From: Pseudobutyrivibrio sp. OR37
GTDB taxonomy: Bacteria; Bacillota; Clostridia; Lachnospirales; Lachnospiraceae
Direction: 5' to 3'
DNA length: 64,000 bases
Assembly: GCF_900113655.1 (NCBI RefSeq)
Contig: NZ_FOQF01000001.1
Span: forward strand, 1 to 64,000
The notes under the pieces were generated by a model. That model was given only the letters and a program-made list of their open reading frames with translations. It had not been told where the DNA came from and ran no database searches. Shown here one piece after another: positions 42,871 to 48,001 of this stretch. The position numbers and the translations under genes were made by a program. The first letter of the stretch is position 1. Every line of letters starts with the position of its first letter.

Positions 42871-43944
42871 CTATTTTAAATAATTTAAAAGTTCCTTACA
42901 GCGGTCCATGGTCATTGTTGCATAGGTATCATTGTAGTCAACAGTTGCCATACTACCACCGTCATGCTCAGCGGTTGCCTTCTCAGCACTAGCATCTCTA
43001 TCCTTAAGCCACTGCCTTTGCTCCTCAAGAGCTTTGTTAAATGTAGCTTCATCTGTATTGTACTTTATTATTCTCCAGATATAATTAAGACACTCATCCG
43101 AAACTCTAATCTGATTTGATGTAGCCTCTACCATATCTGCAATAGTAGCTGCTTCTGAAAGCTGATCTGCATAATAATCATAGCTTTCCTTATATGTTTT
43201 ATAATTACTTTCAGCATCTTCCTTTGGAGCCATTCTCTCATAACTTGTAATACCCTGATTTTCATTAACATTTACAAGCGCAAGATTTTCTAATGTATCC
43301 TGCTGATCTTGTGCATCAATAAAAATCCAGTGCTGAACTTCCTCATCTATTTCTGAAACAGGCTTACCTGGCATATAAATATCAATCTCATCTGCATTTG
43401 AAAGCGCATTTGGGTTTGTAGGAATATATTTTACACCATCTTCAATATATTCACCCATATTATTTATTACTTTAATATCCTTTAAGTGCATTTTATATGT
43501 ATATTCATCCACCTTTTGAATATTCTCGAAATGACCTTCATATTCACAGTAATAAAATGTACCATTTGGATATTCATCACCAATATCACCCATATCAGAA
43601 TCATGGTAACCTCCATGGAAACTCCCGTCCTTATTGATGTTAAAATCATCTTCCCAGCCACCAGCTCCAATACTGAATGAATAGCTATATTTCGCCAAAT
43701 CCTCAAATGTTAATGTGGAATCATTAGCTTTAGTTGTTTCAGTAGTGTCATTCTCTGCCTTATTTGTGTCTGTTGTATCACCTACATCCTTTGTATTATA
43801 TGTACTTTCCTCATCCACTGTAGTATCTGCCCCGCTTCTGTTTACCAAGAAATAAACACCACAGCCAGCCACAAGCACTAATGCAACCGCAATCAAAACA
43901 ATACTTATTCTTCTTTGCATTCTTTTCTTATGTCTTTTACTCAT
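42871..43944 (-). CDS. Membrane-anchored protein with C-terminal LprI/DUF1311-like domain
   Basis: 357 residues. A basic N-terminus (KRHKKRMQRR) and one membrane segment (about 12-33, ending near a Cys in VAGCGVYF) are followed by a Thr/Asp-rich linker and a ~170-residue extracellular part. The C-terminal ~80 residues follow the LprI/DUF1311 pattern: CLNYIWRIIKYN...EEQRQWLKDRDASAEK...GGSMATVDY...MDRCKELLNYL. LprI relatives include lysozyme inhibitors, so an envelope role is possible. It heads the unit with the NUDIX and coiled-coil genes. Whether the Cys serves as a lipobox is unclear. Confidence 0.65.
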   Translation of the reverse strand: MSKRHKKRMQRRISIVLIAVALVLVAGCGVYFLVNRSGADTTVDEESTYNTKDVGDTTDTNKAENDTTETTKANDSTLTFEDLAKYSYSFSIGAGGWEDDFNINKDGSFHGGYHDSDMGDIGDEYPNGTFYYCEYEGHFENIQKVDEYTYKMHLKDIKVINNMGEYIEDGVKYIPTNPNALSNADEIDIYMPGKPVSEIDEEVQHWIFIDAQDQQDTLENLALVNVNENQGITSYERMAPKEDAESNYKTYKESYDYYADQLSEAATIADMVEATSNQIRVSDECLNYIWRIIKYNTDEATFNKALEEQRQWLKDRDASAEKATAEHDGGSMATVDYNDTYATMTMDRCKELLNYLK

Positions 43945-43972
43945 ACACTAATCTCCTTCCAGATGCCCAAAA

Positions 43973-44006
43973 GCATCACCAAAATATTTTAATACAATGG
44001 TGATGC
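43973..44006. terminator. Hairpin between the array cassette and the LprI-like gene
   Basis: GCATCACCA (43973-43981) pairs perfectly with TGGTGATGC (43998-44006). Each side has only a four-T run, so it could act as a weak bidirectional terminator. On the minus strand it would end transcription from the nuclease-like gene through array A. Confidence 0.55.
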
Positions 44007-44082
44007 GTTTTCTACACTCATTCATTTTCCGGAGCATAAATAAAAAACTATATAGATATTTAATTCTTTATTCCAATTGATA

Positions 44083-44436
44083 TTACTATCTAGGAATCAA
44101 TAATCATCGCAGGTAGTAGTCATTTTAAGATAGTCTACTATCTAAAAGTAATTTTGCTCTTACAGGTAGTAGCCCTATCACCTACAACTACTATCTATGC
44201 CATTTTTTTCTTCACAGATAGTAGTCATCTAACTGGCCGTTACTATCTGTAAAAGGAACTTATTCTGTAGATAGTAAACCTCTAAAAAAGCGCTACTATC
44301 TATACAGCTATCTCTCCGTCTAGGTAGTAGTCGTTCTCAAAACCACTACTATCTATATTTCATTTTTAAGGCTCAGATAGTAGTCACATCTAAAACTGAT
44401 ACTATCTATTTATATTTTGCTTTAGAAAATAGTAAT
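44083..44436. repeat. Array A: alternating inverted half-sites, 52-53-bp period
   Basis: The array contains forward half-sites F (AGRTAGTARY) and inverse half-sites R (RYTACTATCTA) in strict alternation. A lone R opens it at 44083-44092. Six F-loop-R units of exactly 34 bp follow at 44111-44144, 44164-44197, 44216-44249, 44269-44302, 44322-44355 and 44375-44408. A worn F ends it at 44427-44436. Each unit is 10 bp + 14 bp loop + 10 bp, and units are separated by 18-19 bp. Loops and spacers are unrelated to one another. Each unit could fold as a hairpin. A near-copy (array B) lies beyond the gene at 44470-45261. No open reading frame crosses it. Together with about 85 bases of plain AT-rich DNA on each side it fills the gap 43945-44469. 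Confidence 0.92.
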
Positions 44437-44469
44437 ATTAGGCTTATACTTGTACAAAATCATAGAACA

Positions 44470-45261
44470 TTACATTAGTAATCTCTTTATTTTCTCTTCT
44501 ACAAGCTTAATATCAATTCCTATACCTTCAGCTTCCACCGAAACTATAAGATTATCCCCTAAAAGTATTCCTGATTTTTCATATTTTGCCAGTTTTGCCA
44601 GATTCTTATCAGAATATGATTCATCAGAAGCTAATCCAAAATGTTCCCAGAAATATGTCTTTCTTTCTCTAATATTCAATAATGCAAAATCTGGATAGAC
44701 TTTACGTCCGTTGTACAACATTACTTCTGGTTCATACTTATAAATCACTCCATACTTAGCAAATAAATCCGCCAAAATCTTTTCTGATTTTGAGCGAACC
44801 TCTTCCCCTTTGTTTGTAGTGTATGACACTGAAAAATCATATGAATTTTGCTCTCCTAAATATTTATTTCTCCATTCAACTATAAATTCATCATCCGTTT
44901 TTTCGATTGGATGCACCAGTCGCTTTTTTCCGTCCGCTAAAGCTTCATAAGAATCTTTTAAATATGTTCCATTATACTTACATAAAAATCTTTCAATAGA
45001 TTTTTCCTGTGCGTAAAGATTGGCAAGTAACTTTTCATAATATTCCTTTTGTGCCAAACGCTTTGCCAATTGTTTATCATCGGCCTTAATATATATTAAA
45101 TCTTTAGTTTCATCCCTATAATAATATTGATAGCATTTATTACTTTTCTTCTGCACTAATGTGTAGTTTATAATGTCAGAATATTTTTTAAGTTCTAACA
45201 TAACTTTTTCTCTATGCCTTTTTACAATTTCTAATTCTTCCTCTAATTCTTTAACATTCAT
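44470..45261 (-). CDS. PD-(D/E)XK-like nuclease-family protein flanked by half-site arrays
   Basis: 263 residues. The N-terminal half is helical and coiled (about 1-110). The C-terminal half has the order GEEVRSKSEKILADLFAKYG, then YNGRKVYPDFALLN, then KTYFWEHFGLASDESY. This fits a PD-(D/E)XK core (Glu in the first helix, PD, then a Glu-bearing strand), and I recall similar 'YPDF...YWEH.G' proteins in many Clostridia, all of unknown role. The last catalytic Lys is not obvious, so activity is uncertain. AAAGGA precedes the ATG by seven bases. The gene is alone, lying exactly between arrays A and B (33 bases and 22 bases away), which suggests it acts on or with them. Restriction-type, RAYT-like or purely DNA-binding roles are all open. 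Confidence 0.7.
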   Translation of the reverse strand: MNVKELEEELEIVKRHREKVMLELKKYSDIINYTLVQKKSNKCYQYYYRDETKDLIYIKADDKQLAKRLAQKEYYEKLLANLYAQEKSIERFLCKYNGTYLKDSYEALADGKKRLVHPIEKTDDEFIVEWRNKYLGEQNSYDFSVSYTTNKGEEVRSKSEKILADLFAKYGVIYKYEPEVMLYNGRKVYPDFALLNIRERKTYFWEHFGLASDESYSDKNLAKLAKYEKSGILLGDNLIVSVEAEGIGIDIKLVEEKIKRLLM

Positions 45262-45283
45262 AAATATATCCTTTCAATCATTA

Positions 45284-45637
45284 TTACTATCTAAAATGAA
45301 TATTTCATATGAGATAGTAGCCATTCTCTTCTGGACTACTATCTATAATTAATTTTCTCTTACAGGTAGTAGCCCTATCACCTACAACTACTATCTATGC
45401 CATTTTTTTCTTCTCAGATAGTAGTCATCCAACTGGCCATTACTATCTGTAAAAGGAACTTATTCTGTAGATAGTAAACCTCTAAAAAAGTGCTACTATC
45501 TATACAGCAATCTTTCCGTCTAGGTAGTAGTCGCTCTCAAAACCACTACTATCTATATTTCATTTTTAAGGCTCAGATAGTAACCACAGCTATACCTCCT
45601 ACTATCTACATGTACTTTTTCTAGCACGGATAGTAAT
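45284..45637. repeat. Array B: second copy of the half-site array
   Basis: The architecture is the same as in array A, about 1200 bp apart. A lone R lies at 45284-45293. Six 34-bp F-loop-R units follow at 45312-45345, 45364-45397, 45416-45449, 45469-45502, 45522-45555 and 45575-45608, and a final F is at 45628-45637. The core 45361-45580 differs from 44161-44380 at only seven of 220 positions, none in a half-site. Outside the core, loops and spacers differ strongly while half-sites remain. It fills nearly all of the gap between the nuclease-like gene and comEC, ending 30 bases before the comEC stop codon. Any promoter for the nuclease-like gene must lie within it. Confidence 0.92.
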
Positions 45638-45667
45638 CATTGCATCAATAACAAGAAATAAGATATC

Positions 45668-48001
45668 CTAATACTGTTTTACGTATTCATCTACAACGTC
45701 TGTGGTTACTTTTATGCGGCCGGAGTTCATGGTGTAGTATATGGTTTTGGTGGTGGCCTCTAAGCGGTCTACGGCCTCGGCAGATGGATGTCCGTAGCGA
45801 TTTTTCTTGGCGCAGCTGATTACAGCCACATCAGGGGATAGAACAGATAAAAACTCAGGGTCGGAGCTGTATTTACTGCCGTGGTGGCTTACCTTCAGTA
45901 AATCGACATGGCCAACCCCACCACTTGCTGCTATAGCCTGTTCCTGTTCGGCACCGATATCACCACCGAAGAAGCCGGAGTAGTCACAGTCTCCATCGCA
46001 ATTGGCATCATATTCCATCAATAGCGACAATGACAAAGCGTTTATATCATCGGATGTCATTCCAGAAAATGGATATACACATTTAAATGACAAATGCTTG
46101 GTTCCACAGATGTCGCCCTGATTCATGTAAACAATATTTGTACCATTCGCCTTAGCCGCTTCAATCAGCTCGTTTAAAGTATCTCCACCAGGAATTTCAG
46201 CAGAAAGTACAATATTATCAATTCTGTAGCCTGTACTAAGCAGCTCCAACACACCTGACACATGATCTAAATCCATATGAGATAAAAACCAATAATCAAT
46301 ATGCCCTGCTCCCTTGTATTTCAAAAATGGCAACAGGGTATATTTTCCAACAGCATCCGAGCTGGTACTGCCTCCATCTATAAAAAACCGTGTTCCATCA
46401 CCGGAGCTAATGTATATTCCATCACCCTGCCCAACGTCAAGAATGTCCACCTCGAAGCCTTGCCTTTCAGGAATAAGCCATAATCCAGCAGCCAAAGAAA
46501 GCAAGCAAAGAATTATTACTAGCTTATTTTGTATTCCTTTAAGTATCAGCCTTGGATTAGATTGCTGGATTGATTTTTCTCCAGTCTTCATACAAATATC
46601 GTAAATACGAAATACATTTACAATTAGTATCAAAACTAAATAATAAAAAATCGCCACGCCTATACTATGCCTTCCGACTATTGTCCTGGCCCTTGGAAGC
46701 TGACTAAAGGTAATTGCACTCATCTCATAAAAATAAATAATCAAATGAGCCGGAAGCAATATTGCCTTTGCTGCTGGTAGAATAAGCAATCCCACAAAGC
46801 CTCCTAAAAGCCCTAGGCCAAGTAGAAACGGCATAAGAGGCAATAATACGGTGTTCAAAACAACAGAATATAAAGGTGTTTCATAGTAAAAGTAGGTAAC
46901 AATAGGAAGCATAGCTACCGTAATAACAAATGAAAAAATTAAACTTGAAACCAGTCCTTCCCTTATGCGCACTCTTAAGGGGATTTTTTCTTCAGGATTA
47001 AAACCATTATCGGAAATACGAAGTCGTTTTCTCCCCTGACATATATTTTTGTACAGCTGACATACTGGTAATGCAAAATATAAAATCGAGAGTATTGCTC
47101 CAAAGGAAAATATAAAGCTGGCATTCTTTATATAAAGTGGGTTTTCAAATAACAGAAAATCTGCCATAACAGCTAAAGCCGTTTTTGAATCGTAGGCCTC
47201 TCCTAAAATATCTGCCAGAAGAAAAATCAAAAACATACCTATTGCTCTAACAGAAGACACACTGCCGCCAGTAAGCAAGCCATACAATACTGCAATTGCT
47301 CCTGCAATGCTTCCACTGATAAGAAAACTAATACCTCTATTTCTCAGGAATCTGTAGGAAGCCATGCAGACAACGGATACATGTAGGGCTGAAACTGCCA
47401 GCACATGTGCTATTCCCACCAGCTGAAACAACGTCTTAAGCTCCCCCATCAATTCACTTTTATTACCAATACAAACACTAGCAATAAAGCCAGCCTCCTC
47501 CCCTGGTAATATGCTTTTGTAAACCTTTAGAAGACTTTGATTCAATCGAAAAAGACTATCTCCTGCAACTAAAAAACCAGCGTAAACCTCATTAACCTTT
47601 GGCTCACTGATTTCAAAAAAGTAGCCCATAGATTCATAATAAGCCTTCTCGTCAAAGCCGCCTTCATTTCTGGCTTGCCTAAAATGCTTTACAGTACCTA
47701 CAATATTTACTTTACTTTTGTTTGGAATTTTATCGGAATCTAATTTAAATATAAAAGAATTGTTATTCAAAGTGCCGTTTTCACAGTTCACAGTGGCACC
47801 ATCAACATAATAGAGAATTGAATCGTTTTTAATTTCCTTGCGGGTAATATTACCTGTTGCATTAACACTGGTGCCCTCCTGCAAGGCCTGCCGGACAGCA
47901 TCAGCTTTGGCGTAGGCCCCAATTAAATCCTTGGGGCCATACACGCTAAATGCAACAATAATCATATAAAACAAGGAAATCAAACATAGCTTTCGCCTCA
48001 T
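45668..48001 (-). CDS. comEC: ComEC/Rec2 family DNA-uptake channel protein
   Basis: 777 residues. An N-terminal segment with a short membrane helix and OB-like DUF4131 region (about 20-150) is followed by the multi-TM Competence domain (about 170-480; ALHVSVVCMASYRF, LTGGSVSSVRAIGMFLIFLLAD). The C-terminal metallo-beta-lactamase-like domain has DILDVGQGDGIYI, FLSHMDLDHVSGVLEL and KVSHHGSKYSS. ComEC carries one DNA strand through the membrane during transformation. It ends an operon that begins with comEA, with a response regulator, a kinase and a GerMN lipoprotein between them. Confidence 0.92.
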   Translation of the reverse strand: MRRKLCLISLFYMIIVAFSVYGPKDLIGAYAKADAVRQALQEGTSVNATGNITRKEIKNDSILYYVDGATVNCENGTLNNNSFIFKLDSDKIPNKSKVNIVGTVKHFRQARNEGGFDEKAYYESMGYFFEISEPKVNEVYAGFLVAGDSLFRLNQSLLKVYKSILPGEEAGFIASVCIGNKSELMGELKTLFQLVGIAHVLAVSALHVSVVCMASYRFLRNRGISFLISGSIAGAIAVLYGLLTGGSVSSVRAIGMFLIFLLADILGEAYDSKTALAVMADFLLFENPLYIKNASFIFSFGAILSILYFALPVCQLYKNICQGRKRLRISDNGFNPEEKIPLRVRIREGLVSSLIFSFVITVAMLPIVTYFYYETPLYSVVLNTVLLPLMPFLLGLGLLGGFVGLLILPAAKAILLPAHLIIYFYEMSAITFSQLPRARTIVGRHSIGVAIFYYLVLILIVNVFRIYDICMKTGEKSIQQSNPRLILKGIQNKLVIILCLLSLAAGLWLIPERQGFEVDILDVGQGDGIYISSGDGTRFFIDGGSTSSDAVGKYTLLPFLKYKGAGHIDYWFLSHMDLDHVSGVLELLSTGYRIDNIVLSAEIPGGDTLNELIEAAKANGTNIVYMNQGDICGTKHLSFKCVYPFSGMTSDDINALSLSLLMEYDANCDGDCDYSGFFGGDIGAEQEQAIAASGGVGHVDLLKVSHHGSKYSSDPEFLSVLSPDVAVISCAKKNRYGHPSAEAVDRLEATTKTIYYTMNSGRIKVTTDVVDEYVKQY

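Follow-up and report, generated by a model that had tools for sequence, protein, structure and literature searches.

The window analysed here, a stretch of 64,000 nucleotides, carries on its reverse strand a gene (44470..45261) for a 263-aa protein with an N-terminal domain and a C-terminal PD-(D/E)XK-like domain. The gene lies between two arrays of alternating inverted half-sites, called upstream and downstream relative to the gene. The earlier note had described a lone gene with E...YPDF...WEH motifs between two arrays of one design, some 1200 bp apart, and this description is confirmed: the open reading frame contains E160, YPDF (189-192) and WEH (205-207), and a 266-bp block of the downstream array (44153..44418) is 93% identical to positions 45353-45618 of the upstream array, 1200 bp away. 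The three neighbouring genes scanned at the locus are a ComEC-like gene with Pfam Competence and Lactamase_B domains (45668-48001), a gene with an LprI domain (42871-43944) and a NUDIX gene.

Both the upstream array (45285..45635) and the downstream array (44084..44434) comprise 14 alternating half-sites, AG[A/G]TAGTA and TACTATCT with at most one mismatch, spaced by 27-28 and 25 bp in turn and forming seven units with a period of 52-53 bp. On the forward strand, the first unit of the upstream array, TACTATCT ... AGATAGTA, occupies 45285..45319 and the remaining units start at 45337, 45389, 45441, 45494, 45547 and 45600. The first unit of the downstream array, TACTATCT ... AGGTAGTA, occupies 44084..44118, with further units starting at 44136, 44189, 44241, 44294, 44347 and 44400. 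The half-site closest to the gene is 31 bp ahead of the start codon in the upstream array; in the downstream array it is degenerate (AAATAGTA, 44427-44434). The same 14 half-sites had been parsed in the earlier note as an opening half-site, six hairpins and a closing half-site. The half-sites stand, but we prefer a parse into seven putative units of the form TACTATCT-N19/20-AG[A/G]TAGTA per array, because among the 31 arrays that alternate strictly and whose 5' edge can be seen 19 have an even number of half-sites (12 have an odd one) and because a one-unit array (L260) and a one-unit remnant (L129) exist. Gene conversion between the two window arrays was considered but found no support: the upstream array is closer to its same-side counterpart in congener L128 (92%) than to the other window array (90%).

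The predicted structure of the protein has a pLDDT of 92.4 and a pTM of 0.69. The N-domain, which reaches a pLDDT of 93.4 when modelled alone, is laid out as a helix (3-25), three strands (34-40, 43-49 and 55-57) and a second helix (60-95). Foldseek and VIA returned no clear match for its fold, only middling prefoldin, coiled-coil and chemokine-like ones; neither search found a likeness to integrase arm-binding domains, an absence that excludes nothing. For the C-domain (approximately residues 146-263) the best Foldseek matches were Bax1 (1.1e-3) and the R2 retrotransposon protein (8.1e-3), with none at E<=0.001. The VIA matches to Bax1 (Z 8.4, rmsd 2.9, 98 aligned residues; the helical N-domain scores similarly) and to the ST1444 resolvase (Z 6.0, rmsd 3.5 over 93 residues) are middling. 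No Pfam or NCBIfam family reaches its cut-off with the window protein. Across 10 members of the family the best Pfam match of any family had an E of 0.025, and no CRISPR/TIGR-Tas effector or Y1/HUH family was found among Pfam matches at E<=0.1. There is a weak profile match to T7 endonuclease I (E 0.016), and one of the 10 members matches a phage Holliday junction resolvase family (9.7e-5).

D191 is present in 143 of 143 aligned proteins, and E160, E206, H207 and K158 in 142, in the arrangement D191-x14-E206. The protein shows the conserved E...(P)D...E motif of the PD-(D/E)XK superfamily on the fold and lacks the lysine at E+2: of the 143 proteins, 138 have F, L or C at position 208, the usual place of this catalytic residue, and 2 have N. 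Because of this replacement cutting is not assured, although the role of the E+2 lysine may fall to K158 or to position 223, which is K or R in 142 proteins. The R2 protein has a P-D-x-E spacing, also without a lysine at E+2. The family is a PD-(D/E)XK-type C-domain combined with a fast-evolving N-domain. In the two orthologue pairs unsaturated at synonymous sites, dN/dS is 0.20 (against L128) and 0.13 (against L130), and 0.08 for the C-domain in both; two further pairs are saturated. The protein is under purifying selection.

A wider genome scan matched at least 583 stretches, of which 575 are relatives; the 80 best were retained and, judged by their titles, come mostly from Lachnospiraceae. 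The family occurs in 51 of 150 genomes of the taxonomic family, own genome included, in 23 of 291 genomes of the class (both at E<=1e-15, partial matches counted) and in 6 of 398 genomes of the phylum (E<=1e-30). Many gut and rumen bacteria carry such nuclease-like genes, mostly with an adjoining array. Carriage by phages or plasmids was considered and rejected: three phage records match (one of which covers 87% at 31% identity and has no enriched array word) and five plasmid records match the C-domain part alone, four of these five ORFs being annotated as AAA ATPases; no relative was found in the viral contigs searched. The C-domain also occurs within open frames of more than 1100 aa (matches in G107, G063 and G116).

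The window's own genome holds 11 matches: the focal gene, nine other full-length genes 27-42% identical to the window protein, and a relic (59% over 69 residues). The strict array caller finds arrays at six of the 10 full-length genes, each with a different 8-bp word, located upstream at L001, L023, L026, L028 and L029 and downstream at L032. A looser listing of repeated 8-mers is suggestive for L024 and L027 and shows arrays at the relic (L031), while the paralogues L025 and L030 have none even there.

To compare loci, one caller with identical thresholds was applied to 143 loci, on 900 bp upstream, 900 bp downstream and distal 900-bp control segments; the set includes redundant pairs (e.g. 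L033/L144) and the broken genes L139 and L142, the fragment L138 being left out. The caller passed 89 of 138 upstream segments and 15 of 140 downstream segments, and 94 of the 143 loci have an array on at least one side. Only 6 of 571 distal segments of the same loci pass, so the window arrays are well above chance; an earlier, simpler scan gave 50 of 90 upstream and 2 of 155 distal. Homologues are thus not mostly array-less, the finding that the earlier note had named as fatal to its proposal, and the observation is real and larger than a single window could show. The C28 paralogue has 14 matches in the genus at E<=1e-60 (45-100% identity, its own entry counted), and every one of them has an upstream array with a GTGGTA core, the weakest (L322) with five exact words. 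Among the 80 retained loci, the contig stops at most 1 kb upstream of the gene in 14 and at most 1 kb downstream in 3, a pattern to be expected if assemblies break at arrays. The 49 loci with no passing array include intact genes, among them L025 and L030; L025 and its 92% homologue L095 both have none. Some of the 49 are missed degenerate arrays and others may truly be without an array. At one further locus (L107, 3478-3742, Helcococcus massiliensis) there are 53-bp tandem repeats with one strongly conserved arm and a degenerate or unclear inverted partner.

The position of the arrays bears on the main rival to the interpretation developed below, namely that the array is an unusually long autoregulatory operator for a nuclease that works elsewhere, on invaders or branched repair intermediates, its abundance being set by titration. 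The prevalence of upstream arrays speaks for an operator, as does the distance from the nearest half-site to the start codon (12 to approximately 500 bp, often below 200). Action elsewhere would agree with the resemblance of the C-domain to the PADLOC candidate-defence family PDC-S68 in 10 of 10 members and with the middling structural similarity to Bax1 and to a Holliday junction resolvase. However, some loci have arrays on both sides of the gene, and arrays reach 38 half-sites, far beyond the need of an operator. Together with the solo arrays described below, this makes the operator explanation rather unlikely, though a serious competitor.

The focal gene is vertically inherited. The comEC locus could be taken from 20 of 28 congeners; eleven of these have an intact gene, three a broken one (L138, L139 and L142) and six none. 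All 11 intact genes have an array passing the caller. Among the gene-less loci, a single array is left at L131, as though the original pair had recombined, and a single unit at L129; the other four have no array of the focal word. More generally, flanks are common to 28 of 30 protein pairs that are 65-98% identical (the exceptions are L024 with L058 and with L065), to 29 of 64 pairs at 55-65% and to 88 of 443 testable pairs at 45-55%. From these shared flanks, the distribution of close homologues is read as descent and loss and not as frequent movement, and a frequently mobile cassette was rejected on the count of 28 in 30. Older relocation or duplication of the cassette may have occurred. A different palindrome, GTGGGCTACTTAAG ... 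CCCACAAG in this or a variant form, is also dispersed and lies beside or inside L129, L130, L134 and L135 (by comEC) and L021.

Array geometry is regular across the family. Periods were scanned in a way that favours no value between 30 and 100 bp, at 47 non-redundant loci (proteins >90% identical dropped) with at least five exact words and at least three alternations. The modal periods are 51-54 bp (26 loci), 63-64 bp (10) and 73-75 bp (8), with single cases at 42, 83 and 113 bp. All but the one at 113 bp (46 of 47) differ by at most 2 bp from a multiple of 10.5 bp (42, 52.5, 63, 73.5 or 84); the multiples of 10.5 were our choice, and the concentration R of the test is 0.84-0.89 for any assumed pitch of 10.0-11.0 bp, so the test does not single out one pitch. 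Where the number of half-sites is even and the edge visible (19 arrays), the gap that starts at the edge is 25-32 bp and the other gap 21-25 or 33-38 bp, a difference of about one turn; in some of the 12 odd arrays the first gap falls outside 25-32 bp. We take an inverted pair of half-sites to be the unit, with units apparently set one turn closer or farther.

The form in which the DNA is read can be gauged from mismatches between adjacent arms. Over the 75 passing arrays (63 upstream and 12 downstream, among 103 loci, redundant ones included), 107 G.T mismatches were counted vs 112 A.C; 26 arrays have more G.T, 27 more A.C and 22 are tied. The focal clade is itself skewed: the window arrays have 0-1 G.T vs 5-6 A.C in the gene sense, and the focal-word arrays of the own genome give 12 forward vs 3 reverse pattern matches. 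This bias vanishes over the 75 arrays, which thus give no general sign of reading as RNA or as single-strand hairpins. Mismatch parity is an indirect gauge of hairpins, and cruciforms likewise predict no strand bias. The lack of an overall strand bias and the periods at whole helical turns favour, on this sequence evidence, double-stranded sites on one helix face over RNA or single-strand hairpins. The hairpin units that the earlier note took to be the active form are accordingly the part of its proposal that found no support.

Two further explanations involve RNA or single-stranded units. In one, an RNA antitoxin or guide array of the type III toxin-antitoxin, CRISPR or TIGR kind, array RNAs would bind the protein. 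Tandem units of about 53 bp directly upstream of the gene and arms that change together would suit it, but there is no overall G.U excess on either strand (the 26 arrays vs 27, with 22 ties), no Rfam match at E<=1 within 43000-46500, and the periods follow whole turns; it is very unlikely. In the other, the protein would excise and copy single-stranded hairpin units in the manner of REP/RAYT. A gene between inverted repeats, vertical inheritance and solo copies recall REPtrons as PMC8049555 outlines them, and the one-strand skew of arm mismatches in the focal clade would fit. Nevertheless, no HUH/Y1 transposase is matched, the mismatches balance over the 75 arrays, and hairpins need no whole-turn phasing; with few array places per word found, this mechanism seems very unlikely.

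The array word changes together with the protein. The co-variation set comprised 70 of 77 arrays, proteins >90% identical to a kept one being dropped. Word similarity correlates with identity of the N-domain (r 0.26) and of the C-domain (r 0.24), values reached by 0 of 1000 permutations for either domain; the partial correlation is 0.153 for N given C (0/1000 permutations) and 0.104 for C given N (1/1000). Of the 11 pairs whose N-domains are at least 50% identical, 10 share the word, as do 12 of the 24 pairs whose C-domains are at least 70% identical. Among these 24 pairs, 11 of 14 share the word if N-domain identity is at least 45%, vs 1 of 10 if it is lower. Within the protein, 22 of the 26 top-decile word-tracking columns lie in residues 1-59 (helix 1 and the β-hairpin), an excess over residues 146-263 that 0 of 2000 permutations reach. 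The best single column is 40, at the β-hairpin; in 4 of 2000 permutations the maximum is as high. Words also differ at the orthologous comEC locus, with both arms changed: they are AGATAGTA, AGGTAGTA (L136, L140, L141), AGGCAGTA (L145), CTACTGCA (L139) and ACTACCAC (L144). Word similarity thus follows protein similarity, and that of residues 1-59 above all. The pairing of array and protein into one system, proposed in the earlier note as a cassette of a PD-(D/E)XK-like protein and a palindromic array, is borne out by this co-variation and by its recurrence in many homologues, with the exception of the hairpin form.

Co-variation also bears on a cruciform-specific resolvase, in which the palindromes would extrude and a domain like T7 endonuclease I would cut the junctions. 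The absence of strand bias is predicted by such an enzyme, and the weak profile matches to T7 endonuclease I and, in one member, to the phage Holliday junction resolvase family point the same way. On the other hand, a different word for each protein and the association with the N-domain point to base reading. Short arms of 8-10 bp with loops of 12-20 bases extrude poorly, and arms and loops here are of just these sizes. A cruciform resolvase is therefore highly doubtful.

Arrays also occur with no adjoining copy of the gene, which argues against an operator. The focal word is found, by one exact pattern, in solo arrays on four further contigs (C15, C26, C35 and C58); ATGCATCC occurs at places on C24, C48, C55 and C72, and AGTGGTAA also between genes with purN and purD domains. 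Arrays far from the gene, which the earlier note had held against its own proposal if common, thus amount to a few per word. The C26 solo array has a near full-length match in G004, and elsewhere in congeners only flank or broken matches. Across 29 genus genomes, purN|purD has array units in nine (own, G004 with exactly one unit, G007, G008, G014, G024, G026, and also G006 and G011, whose contigs stop at this place so that units are known only as sequence matches) and none in 20. The cognate gene with a GTGGTA array is present in eight of these nine genomes (the exception, G008, has no cognate gene at E<=1e-60) and in six of the 20 (one-sided hypergeometric 0.005), a result that is suggestive only, the nine probably being related by descent; a stricter gene definition (at least 68% identity), picked after seeing the list, gives 7 of 9 vs 0 of 20. 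Empty junctions could not be aligned, so that precise insertion at purN|purD was not readable at any of them. The solo arrays and the presence of zero, one or many units at purN|purD only hint at copying of units.

Several side observations concern these places. By eye, the solo arrays of L020 and L021 (C35 and C58) have common flanks that include an apparent start of a neighbouring gene, as if co-copied. On C48 (L031, 2500-5600), ATGCATCC arrays lie near a 75-aa gene relic in a stretch repeated 2469 bp apart. One IS-like end directly adjoins two arrays of the own genome that differ in word (L011 at approximately 1639 and L250 at approximately 1600, the latter with an HTH_Tnp_2 ORF), as if arrays were insertion targets.

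We propose that the locus is a vertically inherited nuclease-array cassette, in which a sequence-specific nuclease would act on phased duplex sites at its own locus, and put the probability of this reading at about one half. The variable N-domain (helix 1 and β-hairpin, approximately residues 1-59) would read a half-site of about 8-10 bp, and two subunits would bind as a dimer to an inverted pair of half-sites about 29 bp apart (start to start), the unit. Since units repeat at mostly five, six or seven helical turns, bound subunits would align on one face of the duplex. The C-terminal domain may then nick or cut the DNA there or close by; as the composite site would span about 16-20 bp, the arrays of the cell would be nearly its sole targets. 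The array adjoining the gene could serve as operator or anchor for the protein, allowing repression, and as its recombination substrate. Breaks in the array would lead units to duplicate, to homogenise and occasionally to be seeded elsewhere. A nuclease acting on arrays would explain repeated units, changes in unit number and seeding, and catalytic-type residues so strictly conserved speak against a protein that only represses. A bolder and more tentative extension is a nuclease-driven satellite, a bacterial element, selfish or domesticated, that would be new as a class; in it an exchangeable β-hairpin domain would read the word, arrays of that word would be the nuclease's main targets in the genome, cuts would copy, homogenise and spread its arrays, and paralogues would be orthogonal by divergence of their words.

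If the cassette reading is true, it would provide a system of DNA-protein co-evolution of which nature already offers dozens of variants (70 non-redundant arrays were compared here). The array word and the recognition domain vary in step, once at orthologous loci, which would make the DNA-reading code of an unstudied domain testable, and the family may offer compact nucleases with long specific sites. It also raises the question of why one genome keeps several word-distinct copies. If the satellite extension is true, word-divergent paralogues would form a natural library of re-targeted DNA-reading domains.

Comparison with known systems suggests a previously unrecognised kind of DNA-binding cassette; no account of such a system appeared in the open-access literature searched. 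As regards restriction-modification, no methyltransferase lies among the three focal-locus neighbours. TIGR-Tas also has an array beside a gene for a DNA-acting protein, but that system is RNA-guided, whereas here there is no overall strand bias and the spacing is DNA-phased. PADLOC PDC-S68 shares the C-terminal ~125 residues (the window protein matches profile positions 1090-1218 of 1221), but its models are of about 1200 residues and only their C-terminal end matches. The R2 retrotransposon protein and Bax1 have a PD-(D/E)XK-type domain according to the Foldseek and VIA matches; here, in contrast, there is no reverse transcriptase, no helicase partner and an N-domain with no clear match to a known fold. 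Plasmid iterons are tandem sites at about whole-turn spacing beside the gene of the Rep protein that binds them and can autoregulate. They resemble the present arrays in having tandem sites at about whole-turn spacing next to the gene of the protein, while the latter consist of alternating inverted half-sites with periods of 53-74 bp, are chromosomal and accompany a nuclease-type protein.

The closest parallel is with the REPtrons described in PMC8049555: short inverted palindromic words frame a gene that is inherited vertically, and word-matched copies occur elsewhere. Flanking inverted words are found here, though usually upstream only, as are dispersed copies, the focal word being present on four further contigs. 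The Y1/HUH transposase of REPtrons has no counterpart among the Pfam matches of the 10 members at E<=0.1 or in the NCBIfam search of the window protein, a PD-(D/E)XK-like protein standing in its place. Moreover, the arrays are helically phased and many-unit, several word-distinct paralogues are present per genome, and copies of each word are far fewer than the REPIN counts quoted in that paper. The layout is thus REPtron-like, while the protein, the geometry and probably also the form of the DNA are different.
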